From NCBI GenBank assembly GCA_020444505.1, contig JAHLKU010000006.1, forward strand, positions 1 through 64,000: 64,000 nt of DNA, written 5' to 3'. The position numbers were made by a program, and so were the translations under genes. Each line of letters starts with the position of its first letter. Within the stretch, counting starts at the first letter, position 1. This document shows positions 46,110-55,460 of the stretch, piece after piece. A model generated the notes under the pieces. That model did not search any database, was not told the DNA's origin, and was given only the letters and a program-made list of their open reading frames with translations. The stretch comes from Actinomycetota bacterium. Its GTDB lineage: Bacteria > Actinomycetota > Acidimicrobiia > Spongiisociales > UBA11373.

Positions 46110-46205
46110 CAGACGGGATGCTCATACGAGGTCACTAGCATGGCCCCTGATACGTGGGGGATGACGACATCGTGTCGCCATCCCGGGACCGACAGAGAGG
46201 TGCGC

Positions 46206-47921
46206 ATGTCGAAGAAGATGCCCCGCTGGGGCGGCGTCGTGGTCGCCGCCGCTGCGGCCGCGGTCGTCCTCGTGCTCGGGGTCGTGGCCGCAGGCGCCCA
46301 GGACGGCGGGACGATGGACCATTCCCAGCTCCCCCAGTTGGCCGGCCCGTTCGAGACCGGCCCGGACGTCACCGCCGCCTGCCTGCAGTGCCATGCCGGC
46401 GTCGGGGAGGACATCCTCCACACCGTCCACTGGACGTGGGAGTACGAGAGCGAAGCCACGGGCGAGACCTACGGCAAGCGCAACGTGATCAACAACTACT
46501 GCGTGTCGGTGGCGCCCAACGAGCCGCGCTGCACCAGTTGCCACATCGGCTACGGCTGGACCGGTGACGACTTCGACTTCGGCGACGCAGGCAACATCGA
46601 CTGCCTGGCCTGCCACGACACCACCGGCACCTACAAGAAGTTCCCGACCGCCGCCGGCCACCCGGTCTACGGCGACCCGGTGCTCTTCAACGGCACCGAG
46701 TGGACGGCGCCCGACCTGGCGGCCGTCGCCCAGAACGTCGGGGAGCCGAGCCGCACCAACTGCGGCTCGTGCCACTTCACCGGCGGCGGCGGGGACGCCG
46801 TCAAGCACGGCGACCTCGACACCAGCCTCGCTGCGCCGGACCGCTCGCTCGACGTCCACATGGCCGTCGACGGCGCCGACATGTCGTGCCAGACCTGCCA
46901 CGTCACCACCGACCATGCCATCGCCGGCAGCCGCTACGTGGGCGACGAGCACACCGGCGGCGCGGCCCAGTGCTCGACGTGCCACACCGACGCCCCGCAC
47001 GGCGACGAGGTCCTCAACACCCACGCCGAGAAGGTCGCCTGCCAGACGTGCCACATCCCCGAGTACGCCCGGGCGCAGCCCACCAAGATGACCTGGGACT
47101 GGACCACCGCCGGCACCCCCACCGACGAGGGCACCCAGCCCAACGTCATCACCGACGAGGCCACCGGCAAGGTGATCTACGACAGCCGCAAGGGCTCGTT
47201 CACCTGGGAGGCCGACGTCGTCCCGGTGTACCTGTGGAGCAACGGCGTGTACGACTACTCGCTGCCGGAGGAGGGCGTGGACCCCGGCACCGGGTTCATC
47301 ATCAACGAGGCGCTCGGCGGCCGCGGCGACGGGAAGATCTGGCCCTACAAGCTGTTCACCGGGACCCAGCCCTACGACGCCGGCAACGACACGATCGCCC
47401 CGCTCAACCTGTTCCCCAAGAACGAGGAGGACGGCGCGACGGCGTTCTGGAAGAACTGGGACATGACGCTCGCCGTCGAGGGCGGCATGGCGGCATGGGG
47501 CCTGCCGTTCAGCGGGGAGATCGGTGACATCGACAGCGAGATGCTGTGGCCCATCACCCACATGGTCGCCCCTGCGAGCGACGCGCTCGGCTGCACCGAC
47601 TGCCACGCCGCCGAGGGCAGGCTCGACTGGGTGGCGCTGGGCTACACCGCAGACGAGGCCGAGGGGCTCGGGGCCTTCCCGCCCACGCTGGGCGCCCCGG
47701 AGACCACGACCACCACCGAGGCCGCCGCCACCACCACCACCGAAGCAGCCACGACCACCACGGAGGCCGCCACCACCACGGAGGCGGCCACGACCACCAC
47801 GGTCGTGGCGATGGACGACGAGGGCGGCGGGAGCGGGCCGATGCCGCTGGTGCTGCTCATCGCCGGGCTGGTGCTGCTGGCCGCCGCCGGGGGCTACGCC
47901 CTCGGCACCCGGGAGCGGTAG
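46206..47921 (+). CDS. Octaheme c-type cytochrome, tetrathionate-reductase (OTR) family, membrane-anchored
   Basis: 571 aa. A signal helix (VVVAAAAAAVVLVLGVVAAGAQ) leads to a domain with eight CxxCH heme sites: CLQCH, CTSCH, CLACH, CGSCH, CQTCH, CSTCH, CQTCH, CTDCH. VINNYCVSVAPNEPRCTSCHIGYGW and CHDTTGTYKKFPTAAGHP are strongly OTR-like. Family members reduce tetrathionate, nitrite or hydroxylamine in vitro. Unlike soluble OTR, this one ends with a Thr/Glu-rich stalk (about residues 498-535) and a C-terminal helix (LVLLIAGLVLLAAAGGYAL), so it is tethered outside the membrane. ATG 46206 has GAGAGG upstream. Confidence 0.9.
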   Translation: MSKKMPRWGGVVVAAAAAAVVLVLGVVAAGAQDGGTMDHSQLPQLAGPFETGPDVTAACLQCHAGVGEDILHTVHWTWEYESEATGETYGKRNVINNYCVSVAPNEPRCTSCHIGYGWTGDDFDFGDAGNIDCLACHDTTGTYKKFPTAAGHPVYGDPVLFNGTEWTAPDLAAVAQNVGEPSRTNCGSCHFTGGGGDAVKHGDLDTSLAAPDRSLDVHMAVDGADMSCQTCHVTTDHAIAGSRYVGDEHTGGAAQCSTCHTDAPHGDEVLNTHAEKVACQTCHIPEYARAQPTKMTWDWTTAGTPTDEGTQPNVITDEATGKVIYDSRKGSFTWEADVVPVYLWSNGVYDYSLPEEGVDPGTGFIINEALGGRGDGKIWPYKLFTGTQPYDAGNDTIAPLNLFPKNEEDGATAFWKNWDMTLAVEGGMAAWGLPFSGEIGDIDSEMLWPITHMVAPASDALGCTDCHAAEGRLDWVALGYTADEAEGLGAFPPTLGAPETTTTTEAAATTTTEAATTTTEAATTTEAATTTTVVAMDDEGGGSGPMPLVLLIAGLVLLAAAGGYALGTRER

Positions 47922-50021: not shown

Positions 50022-51080
50022 CTAGACCTCGCGGAACAGGTACGGGCGGATCACGTCGATCCGGTCCTCGAAGCCGTCGGGGTGCAGGTACCAGAGCGTG
50101 GCGGCCAGCGACGACAGCAGGGCGTTGCCGTCCTGGGGGGTGAAGCAGAACCCCACCAGTTCGTTGCCGTTGCGGACGGTCAGGGTCTCGAACGGCACCA
50201 CCGTCTGGCTGAGGATGCGGCCGAAGTGTCCGTGGTCCCGACCGAACGAGAACACCTGGTTGGCGGACCGCTTGTAGGTCAGGGCGATCCGGGGATTGGC
50301 CCGCAACCGGTCGATCGCCTCGTCCACCGTGGCCTCGCGGTCCAGCACCAGGCTGAAGTGGAGCGCGTGCATGTACTGGGTGTTCAGCTTCACCGCCGAG
50401 GAGAACACCGGCAGGTCGTGGCCCAGGGTGGCGAACAACCCGTGGGCGTCGCGGGCGTGGTGGGTGCCGAAGCGCTCGTCGCCGTGCCCGCCCACGGTGG
50501 GGCTCGGGGCGAACGAGCCGTCCTGGCTGATGTCGTTCGCTCGCCGCATGCAGAGGAAGCGGCCGTTCTCCAGGTGCGAGGTGCCGTCGGGGTCGAACGC
50601 CAGCGACTTGATCAGCACCGCGATGTTGTGGGTGTTGCACGACACCACGTGGATGAAGCGGTCCTCGCCCCGCACCAGCGCCTCGTCGTTGATGCCGCGG
50701 GCGTACATCTTCCCGAAGCCGTACTCCGAGCCCTGGGCGAGGAAGCCGAGCGGGCCGTCGGCGTGCTCGTACACCTCGGCCTTGTTGGTGTTCCCCGCCG
50801 GCGTGCAGTCGATGACCACCGTCGCCCGATCGATCGCCTCCCGGGCATCGAGCCCGGGCTCGAGGCCGATCTCCCGGAAGCCATCCACCGCGCCCTCGTC
50901 CACGGCCAGCGTCGCCCCCCGCCGCAGCAGGTCGGCGACCTTGGCCCGCTCGTGGCGCAGCGGCGTGCGCTTGTGGAAGGTGACCTCGTCGATCCCGAAG
51001 GCGTCCCGATCGTCTTCGAGCAGCCCGATCAGCGGCTCACCGATCGTGCCGGTTCCGACGACGTGGACGATGTTGGGCAT
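50022..51080 (-). CDS. Type II (archaeal-type) glyceraldehyde-3-phosphate dehydrogenase-like protein
   Basis: 352 aa. VVGTGTIGEPLIGLL is the nucleotide-binding start. The catalytic region HVVSCNTHN with Cys148 matches the SCNTTG of archaeal GAPDH rather than the SCTTNC of ordinary bacterial GAPDH. CMRRANDISQDGSFAPSPTVGGHG, MHALHFSLVLDREATVDEAIDRLRANPRIALT and FGRDHGHFGRI follow the type II layout. I infer an NAD(P)-dependent phosphorylating enzyme, but a divergent aldehyde dehydrogenase on another substrate is possible. ATG 51080 has GGGAGGAGG upstream. The track's 52874 start is a shadow. Confidence 0.75.
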   Translation of the reverse strand: MPNIVHVVGTGTIGEPLIGLLEDDRDAFGIDEVTFHKRTPLRHERAKVADLLRRGATLAVDEGAVDGFREIGLEPGLDAREAIDRATVVIDCTPAGNTNKAEVYEHADGPLGFLAQGSEYGFGKMYARGINDEALVRGEDRFIHVVSCNTHNIAVLIKSLAFDPDGTSHLENGRFLCMRRANDISQDGSFAPSPTVGGHGDERFGTHHARDAHGLFATLGHDLPVFSSAVKLNTQYMHALHFSLVLDREATVDEAIDRLRANPRIALTYKRSANQVFSFGRDHGHFGRILSQTVVPFETLTVRNGNELVGFCFTPQDGNALLSSLAATLWYLHPDGFEDRIDVIRPYLFREV

Positions 51081-51154
51081 GGGTGTCCTCCTCCCGGGGC
51101 CCGCCCGACGGGCCGACCTCATGCTACGTGGCGGTCCGCAGCCGCCGGCGGCTC

Positions 51155-52282
51155 CTACGCCGGCACCCCCAGCGCCTCGGCCAGCATGCCGGCCGCCTCC
51201 GGCGGCGTCGTGGCGTGGGGCGACAGGCGCACCCAGTCGCCGCGATGGGACACGATGAGCCCGGCGTCGAGCAGATGGGCGGTCGTCGCCGCCGGCTCCG
51301 CCCCCGGCAACCGGAAGCAGAGGATCCCGGCCCGTTCCGCCGGCGACGCCCAGGGTGCGCGGATGTCCGCCCCGGCCCGGCGCAGTACCTGCTCGAGTTC
51401 GGCCACCCGGTGGTGCACGACCGTGGAGATCGCCTCGATCCCGGCGAGGCCGGCCACCTCCACCGCCGCGGCAAACTGAAAGGCGCCCACGATCGGCGGC
51501 GTCCCCTCCTGGTACCGGCCCGCCCCTGCGGCGGCGGGGTGGGGAGGAGGGACGGCCGTAGCCATGGGCTCCTCCACGCCGAGCCACCCGCACAGCGCCG
51601 GCGACAGGCGATCCAGGGCACGGTCGGACACCGCCATCACCCCGCTCCCCCAGCCGGCCCGCATCCACTTCTGCCCTCCGGCGACCATCACGTCGGCGGG
51701 CCCGATCCCACGGTGCACCGCCCCCAGGCCCTGGATGGCGTCCACCACCAGCAGCGCGTCCCCTGCTGCCTCCCGCATCCCGTCGAGATCCGCCCGGAAG
51801 CCGGTCTCGAACCCGACCAGGCTGAGCGCCACCGCCCGGGTCGCGCCGTCCACCGCGGCGGCCACCACGTCCGGGGTCAGCCGCCCCCCGGGCGCCTCGA
51901 CCCATCGCACCTCGGGCCCGCCCGCCTCGGCCGCCCGGAGCCACGGGTACACGTTGGCGGGGAACTCCCCGGCGGGCACGACGACGTTGCCGCCGCTCCC
52001 GAGGAGCCCGAACGCCACCTGGAACAACCCCGCCGACGTCATGGGCAGCGGGGTGGCATGCGTCGCCGGCACACCCATGAAGCCGGCGATCGCGCCGACC
52101 GCCTCCTCGTAGCGGGGCAGGATCGCGTCCGCCAGCGCGCCTTCGGCGGAGGCGATCTCGGCCAGCAGGGCGTCGACGACGGATCGCACCCGGCGGGACA
52201 CGGGCCCGATGGAGGCGTAGTTGACGTACCCGGCTGGCTCGGAGAACTCGTCCAGGTAGGCGTCGGGCAGCAGGCTCATCAC
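51155..52282 (-). CDS. Class V aminotransferase-fold PLP enzyme
   Basis: 375 aa, fold type I, related to isopenicillin-N epimerase/selenocysteine-lyase-like proteins. PANVYPWL, VVVDAIQGLGAVHRGI (Asp and Gln for PLP) and the PLP lysine in VAGGQKWMRAGWGSG are visible. No persulfide Cys loop like that of SufS is present, so a desulfurase role is unlikely. It overlaps the DUF885-like gene stop by 4 nt (GTGATG), suggesting a shared transcript. Substrate unknown. Confidence 0.85.
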   Translation of the reverse strand: MMSLLPDAYLDEFSEPAGYVNYASIGPVSRRVRSVVDALLAEIASAEGALADAILPRYEEAVGAIAGFMGVPATHATPLPMTSAGLFQVAFGLLGSGGNVVVPAGEFPANVYPWLRAAEAGGPEVRWVEAPGGRLTPDVVAAAVDGATRAVALSLVGFETGFRADLDGMREAAGDALLVVDAIQGLGAVHRGIGPADVMVAGGQKWMRAGWGSGVMAVSDRALDRLSPALCGWLGVEEPMATAVPPPHPAAAGAGRYQEGTPPIVGAFQFAAAVEVAGLAGIEAISTVVHHRVAELEQVLRRAGADIRAPWASPAERAGILCFRLPGAEPAATTAHLLDAGLIVSHRGDWVRLSPHATTPPEAAGMLAEALGVPA

Positions 52283-53667
52283 AGGTCCTCTCTTCCCAGC
52301 AGACCGATCGGCGGGGCGCCGTGCGACAGGATCTCGTCGTGCGAGAGGCCCCCTTCAACGCACGCAGCGATCCGGCGGCGGCCCAGCGCCGCACTCCACC
52401 GCCACGGGTCGGCGGCGCAGGCGTCCGCCTCGGCGGCTGCAGCCGGCTCTCCCAGCCCGGCCCTCGCCGCCAGCCTGCGGGCCGCGTCGCCCACCGGCAG
52501 CCGGTCGGCGTGGATCTCCACCACCGCCAGCAGCCGGGCGTCGTCGAGCACCCGGAGCGGGTCCGGCCCGGCGAGGCCGGCGGCGTAGGCGGCCCACCCC
52601 GCGGTGAAGGCCGGCGATGCGGTGCGGCGCAGCGGCTCCGACGGGGCAGCGGAGTGGTGGAGCGCCTGCAGCGCGCGGCCGGGGAACACCTCCCGCGCCA
52701 GCAGCGCCCGCAACGCCGCCGGGCTCGCCGCGGCGCCGGGCCGCACCCCGCAGCGGACGGTGCGCTCGCCCTCCTCCAACGGGCCCGGCACGTCCACCGC
52801 CACCACCCGCCCCTCCGGGAGCGGCTCCTCCTCTGCCCGCACCCCTGCGCCGGGGGGAAGGGGCGCCACGGCACCGGCGGCGGACTCCAGGGCGGCGAGC
52901 AGGCCCCGCACCTCCTCCACGGTCACCGGATGCTCCTCGGCGGGCGCCGCCGCCACCGGATCCCCCACCCCGGCCCGCACCTCGCCCACCTCGATGCCCA
53001 GCGCCTCGCCGTCGGTCAGCATCGCCTGCAGGGCGGGCTCCCCCAGCGCCGCCTCCGGCAGTGCCGACGGCAGCGCCTCCTCCAGGCGGGCCCAGTACGA
53101 ACCGAGCGCGGCGGCGGCGCGCTGCGCAGACTCCACCAGCGCCGCCGCTGCCGCACGGTCCTCGGCACCGCGCACCCGCGCCGGCAGGCCGTGCTCCAGC
53201 CACCAGGCGGCCTCGCCGACCCGGCGGACCGCACGGCGCAGCACCGGGGCCGGGACCCCGTCGACCGGAGCGTCGAGCACCTCCGGTGCCGCGTCCAGCA
53301 GGGCGGCCGCCGCCTCCGCCCGGTGCCCGAACGGGGCGTAGGGGCGGGCCAGGTAGGGGCGCACGTCGAACGGCGCCGCGGACGACCACGGGTCGCGTCG
53401 TCGAGGCCCTCCCGGGCCCCAGTCGAAAAGGGCACGGTCGGCGGCGGCGCGGAGCACCAGGGCGTCGAAGGCGGCGGCGGGATCGAGCCCCGCCGGCGGC
53501 GCGAGGCGGTCCCCCAGCAGCCGGAGCCGGCCCAGCCGCGCGTCGAGCGCCTCCTCACCGGGCTCGGGCACCGTGCCGTCGTAGTGGTGCATCCCGAACG
53601 CCACCGCCGACGAGGGCTCCAGACCCCACAGCGCAGCGCTCACCCCGTCGGCGACCCGGTCGAACAT
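52279..53667 (-). CDS. DUF885-like protein with degenerate metal motif
   Basis: 462 aa. Overall architecture resembles DUF885 carboxypeptidase-like proteins (helical, with an N-terminal LEPSSAVAFGMHHYDGTVPEP). The family zinc motif HExxPGHxLQ reads REVFPGRALQ here, and the later EGWALY reads AGWAAY. Both His ligands and the Glu of the second motif are therefore replaced. I infer a non-catalytic relative. It is Ala/Arg-rich but has no stop or frameshift. A leaderless -10 box precedes ATG 53667, and it is followed by the class V aminotransferase. Confidence 0.6.
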   Translation of the reverse strand: MFDRVADGVSAALWGLEPSSAVAFGMHHYDGTVPEPGEEALDARLGRLRLLGDRLAPPAGLDPAAAFDALVLRAAADRALFDWGPGGPRRRDPWSSAAPFDVRPYLARPYAPFGHRAEAAAALLDAAPEVLDAPVDGVPAPVLRRAVRRVGEAAWWLEHGLPARVRGAEDRAAAAALVESAQRAAAALGSYWARLEEALPSALPEAALGEPALQAMLTDGEALGIEVGEVRAGVGDPVAAAPAEEHPVTVEEVRGLLAALESAAGAVAPLPPGAGVRAEEEPLPEGRVVAVDVPGPLEEGERTVRCGVRPGAAASPAALRALLAREVFPGRALQALHHSAAPSEPLRRTASPAFTAGWAAYAAGLAGPDPLRVLDDARLLAVVEIHADRLPVGDAARRLAARAGLGEPAAAAEADACAADPWRWSAALGRRRIAACVEGGLSHDEILSHGAPPIGLLGREDL

Positions 53668-53673
53668 GAGCCG

Positions 53674-53679
53674 AGGCTA
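53674..53679 (-). promoter_or_regulatory. -10 box TAGCCT of a leaderless transcript
   Basis: TAGCCT on the minus strand, 6 nt before ATG 53667. Confidence 0.5.
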
Positions 53680-53699
53680 CCCGGCAGGGTGGCTCCGCC

Positions 53700-55460
53700 T
53701 CAGCGGAGGATCCCCCGCTCCCACACCGCCACGAGCCGGGCGTAGCCGGGGTGGCTCACGGCGAGTTCGGCGTGGGGGCCGACCGCCGTGATGCGGCCCT
53801 GGTCCATCATCACCACCCGGTCGGCGCCCTCGGCGGTGCGGAGCCGGTGGGCGATGACCACTGCGGTCCGCCCGGCGAGCACGGTCGCCAGCGCCCGCTC
53901 CACCCGCACCTCGGTCTCGGGGTCGAGGTTCGAGGTGGCCTCGTCGAGCACGATCACGCCCGGGCCGGCCAGCAACGCCCTCCCCAGCGCCACCAGTTGG
54001 CGCTCCCCCGCCGAGAACCGGCTGCCCCGCTCCCGCACCAGGGTGTCGAGCCGTTCCGGCAGCGCCCGCACCCACGGCTCGATCCCCACCTCGCGGCACA
54101 CTTCCCACACCTCGCCGTCGGTGGCGTCGGGGCGGGCGTAGCGGAGGTTGTCGCGCAGCGTGCCGTTGAAGAGGAACCCCTCCTGGGGGATCAGCACCAC
54201 CCTGCGGGCCCGCTCTGCGGCGGTGATGGTGCGCAGGTCGACGCCGTCCACCACCACCCTCCCCTCGGTGGGGTCGTAGAAGCGCAGGACGAGGCGCGCC
54301 AGCGTCGACTTGCCGGCGCCGGTCTCCCCGACGATGGCCACTCGCTCGCCGGGCGCCACCACCAGGTCCACGCCCTCCACCACCGGGAGGCCGGGCACGT
54401 AGGCGAACGTGACGCCCTCCAGCCGCACCTCCCCCCGCACCTCGTCCGGCCACGACGCCGGCGCCTCCGGGTCCTGCACGGTGGGCGGCGTGTCGAGCAG
54501 GCGGAACAGCTTGCCGAACGCCGCCGCCGCCGACTGCATCTGGTTGTAGGTGTTGGAGAGATTGATGATCGGCTGGAAGAACCAGTCGAGGTACAACAGC
54601 ATCACGACCAGCGACCCGAACGACATCTGCCCGTCCAGCACCCGGCGCCCGCCGAGCAGCAGCACCAGGCCGATGCCGACGGCCCGCAGGAACGCCACCC
54701 CGGGGAAGTACCAGGCGACCGCCCGGGCGGCCCGCATGTTGGCTTCGAAGTAGCGCTCGTTGACCCTGCCGAAGGCGCCCGCCTGCTGCTCCTCCTGGGT
54801 GAAGGCCTGCACCACCCGGACGCCGGTGATCCCCTCCTGCAGCGTGGCCAGCACCCGCCCGATCTGCTCCCGCACCTCGCGGTAGGCCCTCCCGGCGAAG
54901 CGCTGGAACACCCAGGAGATGGCGATCACCGCCGTGATGAGGACGAACACCTCCAGGGCCAGCGAGGCGTCCACCAGCAGCATCGCCACCGACACCCCGA
55001 TCAGGGTGAGCAGGTTGATGGCGAGGCTCACCGCTCCCTCCTCGGCGAACTCCTGGATCGACTCGATGTCGTTGGTCATGCGGCTGACCAGCACCCCGGC
55101 CTTCGATCTCCCGAAGAAGGCCATGTCGAGCTCCATGAGATGCCGGAAGACGGCGCTCCGCAATCGCCGCAGGTACTGCTCGCCCACCCACGCCACCGCG
55201 TACTGGGCGGTGCGCTGCGACGCGTACTGCAGCACCATCAGCCCCAGGTACACCAGGGCGGCGACGGTCACCACGCCCCGGTCACCGGCACCCATGCCGT
55301 CGTCGATGCCCACCCGCACCGCCTGCGGGCCGGCGAGGCGGGCCACCGTCGCCACCACCGTCGCCAGCAGCGCGCCGACGGCCGGCCACGCCAGGAACCG
55401 GGCCAGGCCGACCGCCCTGCGCAGCAGGCGGCCGGTGCGGCGCTCCTCACGGACGGTCAC
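53700..55460 (-). CDS. ABC exporter half-transporter, type IV fold (second subunit)
   Basis: 586 aa. Six transmembrane helices (about residues 20-320) precede an ATPase domain with Walker A GETGAGKST, signature SAGERQLVALGRALL, Walker B GVIVLDEATSNLD and the switch IAHRLRT. The signature FSAGERQ is slightly divergent from LSGGQ. It starts in a 4-nt overlap with a second half-transporter, so the two probably form a heterodimer for lipid or drug export. Confidence 0.92.
   Translation of the reverse strand: MTVREERRTGRLLRRAVGLARFLAWPAVGALLATVVATVARLAGPQAVRVGIDDGMGAGDRGVVTVAALVYLGLMVLQYASQRTAQYAVAWVGEQYLRRLRSAVFRHLMELDMAFFGRSKAGVLVSRMTNDIESIQEFAEEGAVSLAINLLTLIGVSVAMLLVDASLALEVFVLITAVIAISWVFQRFAGRAYREVREQIGRVLATLQEGITGVRVVQAFTQEEQQAGAFGRVNERYFEANMRAARAVAWYFPGVAFLRAVGIGLVLLLGGRRVLDGQMSFGSLVVMLLYLDWFFQPIINLSNTYNQMQSAAAAFGKLFRLLDTPPTVQDPEAPASWPDEVRGEVRLEGVTFAYVPGLPVVEGVDLVVAPGERVAIVGETGAGKSTLARLVLRFYDPTEGRVVVDGVDLRTITAAERARRVVLIPQEGFLFNGTLRDNLRYARPDATDGEVWEVCREVGIEPWVRALPERLDTLVRERGSRFSAGERQLVALGRALLAGPGVIVLDEATSNLDPETEVRVERALATVLAGRTAVVIAHRLRTAEGADRVVMMDQGRITAVGPHAELAVSHPGYARLVAVWERGILR

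Follow-up and report, generated by a model that had tools for sequence, protein, structure and literature searches.

Proteins of the DUF885 family (PF05960; Peptidase_MA clan) are widespread and of unknown function, with 3iuk, 3o0y and 3u24 as solved structures. From the clan assignment, taken together with a zinc-site prediction for the family (PMC12572635), it follows that two His and one Glu would be the metal ligands, the two His lying within HExxPGH and the Glu within EGWAxY. Pseudopeptidases are a known kind of protein and have been reviewed (PMC11266112); FtsHi4, for example, has REAAV at the position of the HExxH of FtsH (PMC11266112). In titles and abstracts, the literature searched on DUF885/PF05960 reports no inactive member. 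The protein described here adds a DUF885 case to this already known kind.

The window, the 64,000-nucleotide stretch of actinomycetotal DNA that was analysed, encodes a DUF885 protein, putatively catalytically dead, at 52279-53667 on the minus strand. As stated in the preliminary description, the frame is open over 462 codons, running from an ATG at 53667 to 52279. It begins 32 nt after a gene for an ABC exporter subunit (53700-55460, minus strand), a recurrent neighbour in the loci surveyed, and its stop codon overlaps, in the sequence TGATG, the start of a gene for a class V (PLP) aminotransferase (51155-52282, minus strand; Pfam Aminotran_5, 85.3 bits) that retains the PLP lysine in GGQKW. 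Further downstream, 50022-51089 (minus strand) encodes a protein with distant similarity to the type II glyceraldehyde-3-phosphate dehydrogenase (GAPDH) of archaea (NF003251 of NCBIfam; 70.7 bits against a cut-off of 185) for which a Pfam search gave no match; this neighbourhood is also kept, in gene order, in two of the related genomes described below, G041 and G048. In both, the aminotransferase and GAPDH-like genes are separated by one or more genes for DUF7507/DUF11-type surface proteins (L015:4004-5791 and L016:2080-5753) that the window lacks. Elsewhere in the window, 46140-47921 (plus strand) encodes a secreted-looking protein, probably a multihaem cytochrome of the cell surface, in which many CxxCH haem-binding motifs and a Thr-rich stalk are followed by a membrane anchor at the C-terminus. 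The 2.54-Mb genome has two more DUF885 genes, both canonical (HEGFPGHH or HEGVPGHH; EGWALY) and of other subfamilies.

Membership of the window protein in DUF885, as first proposed, was confirmed in two ways. DUF885 is its sole Pfam match (E 6.4e-9, 36.4 bits, gathering cut-off 32.4), and an AlphaFold2 model built on an 18-row alignment (pLDDT 90.5, pTM 0.90) has as its top Foldseek matches the solved DUF885 structures 3u24, 3o0y and 3iuk (TMq 0.68-0.78, probability 1.00), with M32 carboxypeptidases ranked below them. Given an alignment, a good fold can be drawn by AlphaFold2 even for a decaying protein. A search of the PDB by sequence alone with the window protein gave no match. The Pfam score and the fold match together rule out that the similarity to DUF885 is not significant. 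An open frame of 462 codons would arise by chance, at the codon-position composition of the gene, with a probability of ~0.009. An antisense frame (52321-53745, plus strand) is also open across nearly the whole gene; it is most likely a product of high GC and is no evidence of a gene. As the DNA is very GC-rich and the antisense frame is wholly open too, the open frame is weak evidence for the DUF885 gene, and the case for a real gene is carried by homology, by 3-base periodicity (GC1/2/3 =.87/.60/.92) and by dN/dS.

When the window protein was aligned with 17 intact relatives, 29 columns were invariant among the latter and 18 of these are retained in the window protein, including E326, P329, G330, G357, W358 and H443. 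REVFPGRALQ (residues 325-334) aligns exactly on HExxPGH, a motif in which the H, E and H are present in 17/17 intact relatives; in the corresponding REVFPGR (residues 325-331; 52675-52695, minus strand) the first and second inferred ligands are substituted (H325R and H331R) and the base, E326, is kept. AGWAAY (residues 356-361; 52585-52602, minus strand) replaces EGWAxY and has lost the third inferred ligand (E356A), a Glu also invariant in all 17. Residue 426 (52390-52392, minus strand) is Ala in place of the Tyr of an S-Y-x-x-G motif found in every intact relative, and the invariant Arg at 375 is lost. The preliminary description had claimed that the zinc motif was gone, and this holds, with both substituted motifs present as written and no motif elsewhere. 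A true HExxPGH at another place in the protein is ruled out, as no HE dipeptide was found anywhere in the 462 residues.

A search of the contigs of related genomes with the window protein alone found nothing; an alignment-based search of the same contigs recovered 21 loci. The subfamily is present in only 6 of 138 genomes of the order. Intact copies followed by or paired with the aminotransferase gene occur in G041 (MAG JAHJML01, same genus; HETYPGH and EGWAHY; aminotransferase 68% identical to that of the window) and in G095 (Acidimicrobiia MAG JASJAX01, another family; HEAYPGH and EGWAHY), and in G064 an intact DUF885 gene follows an ABC gene without an aminotransferase gene. Two further copies are dead, both adjoining the aminotransferase gene and both from one sister genus: G048 (Acidimicrobiia MAG JAFGCH01; TEGFPGR and DGWEGY) and G047 (MAG VGBK01; GAACPGR and DGWRLY). 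DUF885 scores fall from 269 bits in the intact G041 to 114 in G048, 111 in G047 and 36 in the window, each above the cut-off. The ligand positions read H/H/E in 17/17 intact relatives, R/R/A in the window, T/R/D in G048 and G/R/D in G047, so that H331R is common to all three dead copies, and E326 is retained in two of them. As to whether the substitutions are fixed in relatives, this is true of H331R, but G041, in the same genus, is intact and the other dead copies differ at the other ligands. None of the three, from three genomes of two genera, has a frameshift or stop, and no more dead DUF885 copies turned up among 397 genomes sampled from the phylum, loci L117-L119 being intact. With intact and dead relatives alike paired with the aminotransferase, the pair is ancestral and the loss secondary. 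That the window gene is not DUF885, or is an assembly artefact, is hardly credible: the Pfam score is weak, the assembly is MAG-like and the antisense frame is open, but the score exceeds the cut-off, the fold matches, an orthologue lies at the same place and two independent genomes show the same kind of loss.

Two other observations were made in this survey. In G047, the beginning of the dead DUF885 gene is present on two contigs (L017 and L012) in near-identical copies, with 97% identity across 642 nt, the result of either a strain mixture or a recent duplication; Ka/Ks between these N-terminal copies is 0.14-0.33 but, with 13 differences only, was given no weight. Locus L032 (G026, family f5, genus g20) encodes a DUF885-like protein whose metal motif is a different variant: it has HEGVHYKQ and NEGLAHY, an HExxH lacking the PG insertion.

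In Actinobacteria, TANNNT ~12 nt upstream of, or close to, the start codon marks leaderless genes (PMC3160421). TAGCCT (53674-53679, minus strand), 6 nt before the ATG of the DUF885 gene, is the candidate -10 box of a probable leaderless promoter. A similar box is found at some start codon in 4 other of 36 long coding-like frames of the window, so a single box is weak evidence and conservation across loci is what counts. TAGNCT is present 3-9 nt before the start in six of six orthologous loci, a span that depends on the start chosen for G048, and the window box is therefore more than chance; in the window and G041 the region reads GGGTAGCCTCGG(CT/TG)C-ATGTTCGA(C/T)CGG. The proposal that the gene has its own -10 box is sound on these sequences, and co-expression with the aminotransferase, also proposed, is probable from the TGATG overlap and the presence of the pair in G041, G095, G047 and G048. 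We infer that the gene is transcribed and gives a stable folded product.

Among intact copies, identity is 69-79% in the catalytic half and 41-49% in the N half; between the dead G047 and G048 this is inverted, at 42% and 53%. A codon branch model in which the DUF885 gene and the adjacent aminotransferase gene had common branch times gave catalytic-half omega values of 0.026 in intact copies, 0.24 in the window and 0.35 on the tips leading to G047 and G048. The corresponding N-half values were 0.08, 0.17 and 0.25, and omega of the aminotransferase stayed at 0.04-0.08. Several branches are at the upper time limit, where absolute omega is rough, but the G047/G048 tips are not; synonymous sites are near saturation except within this pair, and the window omega averages the time before and after loss. 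Omega = 1 is rejected for the window (2dlnL 40 for the catalytic and 55 for the N half) and for the tips (60 and 112), the latter treated as wholly post-loss on the assumption that G047 and G048 inherited one loss, as their shared R331, D356 and deletion suggest. NG86 dN/dS between G047 and G048 is 0.48 (0.36-0.63) in the N half, about the same as for an intact pair (0.46), and 0.57 (0.41-0.77) in the catalytic half, with both upper limits below 1. In the dead copies the catalytic half is strongly relaxed, and on the G047/G048 tips purifying selection persists after loss, relaxed but not neutral. The preliminary description had looked to dN/dS as a check, and with neutrality rejected at a catalytic-half omega of 0.24 (window) and 0.35 (tips) the result agrees with its reading: as purifying selection persists, the window gene is probably not simply a pseudogene.

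These values also bear on the main rival reading, less probable but plausible for the window copy, that the gene is decaying, its peptidase no longer needed and its catalytic half eroded, and that it will be lost in future as in relatives with only the ABC and aminotransferase genes; the frame would then stay open mainly because of what flanks it, the promoter on one side and, on the other, the aminotransferase gene that overlaps it and is translationally coupled to it. In many genomes of family f7 the aminotransferase gene directly follows the ABC gene, the DUF885 gene being repeatedly absent and the aminotransferase kept, so this lineage can do without DUF885. Omega of the catalytic half is up ~10-fold, dN/dS of this half between G000 and G041 is 0.77, and the lineages lost different residues. 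The window copy is the most eroded of the three, having accumulated in-frame deletions (462 aa versus ~535) and a GC-driven amino-acid drift that shows the same relaxation as omega, with G+A+R+P making up 0.52 of its residues, as compared with 0.47 and 0.48 in the other dead copies, 0.32-0.35 in intact DUF885 proteins (0.35 in G041) and 0.38-0.45 in the aminotransferases, whatever the state of the DUF885 copy. Against decay stand the rejection of omega = 1 in both halves, which extends to the sister-genus tips, where in all likelihood the whole branch follows the loss; NG86 confidence limits below 1; an N half in G047/G048 about as constrained by NG86 as in an intact pair; and three genomes of two genera free of frameshifts and stops.

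A plain DUF885 tree joins the three dead copies (support 98/96 at full length and 96/95 for the catalytic half, the N half being unresolved); the aminotransferase prefers window plus G041, the species topology, by 21 lnL. SR4 recoding, which damps composition, joins the N half of the window copy with that of G041 (86/78) and the catalytic half weakly with the dead copies. The window and G041 exclusively share 25 residues in the N half, as against 6 in the C half. Without recoding, the codon likelihood of the N half is better for the one-loss tree by 9 lnL. Two losses are favoured by the aminotransferase tree, gene order, the start region shared with G041 and the SR4 N half, and one loss by the catalytic half, the plain full-length tree and the unrecoded N-half codon likelihood, a signal that can come from long branches and shared composition drift. 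We slightly prefer two parallel losses with convergent erosion; the alternative is a single loss together with an exchange, later or older, in G041.

Our best explanation, held with a probability of about 0.55, is that the window DUF885 protein is a pseudoenzyme retained for a non-catalytic role. An intact DUF885 metallopeptidase-like putative enzyme would have formed an ancestral two-gene operon with the class V aminotransferase, and its metal site would have been destroyed in the window lineage and in the sister genus. The dead protein would have lost both binding of the catalytic metal and cleavage by the mechanism of the family. Transcription presumably continues from the conserved leaderless promoter to give a product predicted to fold as DUF885 and to be translated in tandem with the still-intact aminotransferase, weakened purifying selection keeping the fold, not the chemistry, for a non-catalytic job. 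This might be binding or scaffolding, for which the aminotransferase or a former substrate is a conceivable target, and a regulatory link with the aminotransferase could be imagined. Of the original proposal of a pseudoenzyme kept for binding or regulation, retention under purifying selection is probable; binding or regulation does not find the same support, a DUF885 neighbour being absent from most orthologues of the aminotransferase in the order. The proposed partnership is the weakest link in this reading: it is suggested by family f1, where every genome that encodes this aminotransferase (4/4) also has the DUF885 gene, as against the many aminotransferases elsewhere without one. It is rather unlikely that the protein was inactivated twice in parallel within one family, with an identical H-to-R change and 13-residue loop deletion each time, and then came to serve the aminotransferase specifically, as a non-catalytic subunit or a partner that binds a ligand. 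It is also improbable that the pocket now carries out metal-free chemistry or ligand binding, with an acidic ligand, such as a substrate or product of the aminotransferase, held by the new arginines (R331 being common to the three dead copies). H331R in 3/3 dead copies, E326 in 2/3 and the retained GW and PG frame of the pocket are consistent with such a change, but H to R takes one A-to-G change in a GC-biased genome, the remaining pocket residues differ among the three copies, and R375 and Y426 are lost.

In comparison with known systems, the protein described here resembles DUF885 proteins of known structure in fold, in alignability over the full length and in its GW, PG and C-terminal H and G landmarks, but lacks the three metal ligands, Tyr426 and Arg375 and is ~70 residues shorter. 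With the intact G041 and G095 it has in common the gene pair, -10 box and downstream aminotransferase, whereas these retain both catalytic motifs. Features common to it and the dead G048 and G047 are H331R, absence of the first His and of Tyr426, a gap of 13 residues preceding the motif, and the aminotransferase partner; the G048 and G047 proteins differ from it in being nearly full length and in carrying Asp, not Ala, at 356 and either Thr or Gly at 325. The association of a specific aminotransferase with DUF885 provides a handle on the function of this family. Metallopeptidase-family pseudoenzymes are best studied in eukaryotes; the series described here is bacterial and has a constant operon partner next to both intact and dead orthologues, which allows a direct comparison of lost catalysis with the features that selection still maintains. 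As in the inactive metallopeptidase homologues already reviewed (PMC11266112), ligands are lost and the fold, here a predicted one, is kept, but those homologues belong to unrelated families, are mostly eukaryotic and include several with known function.
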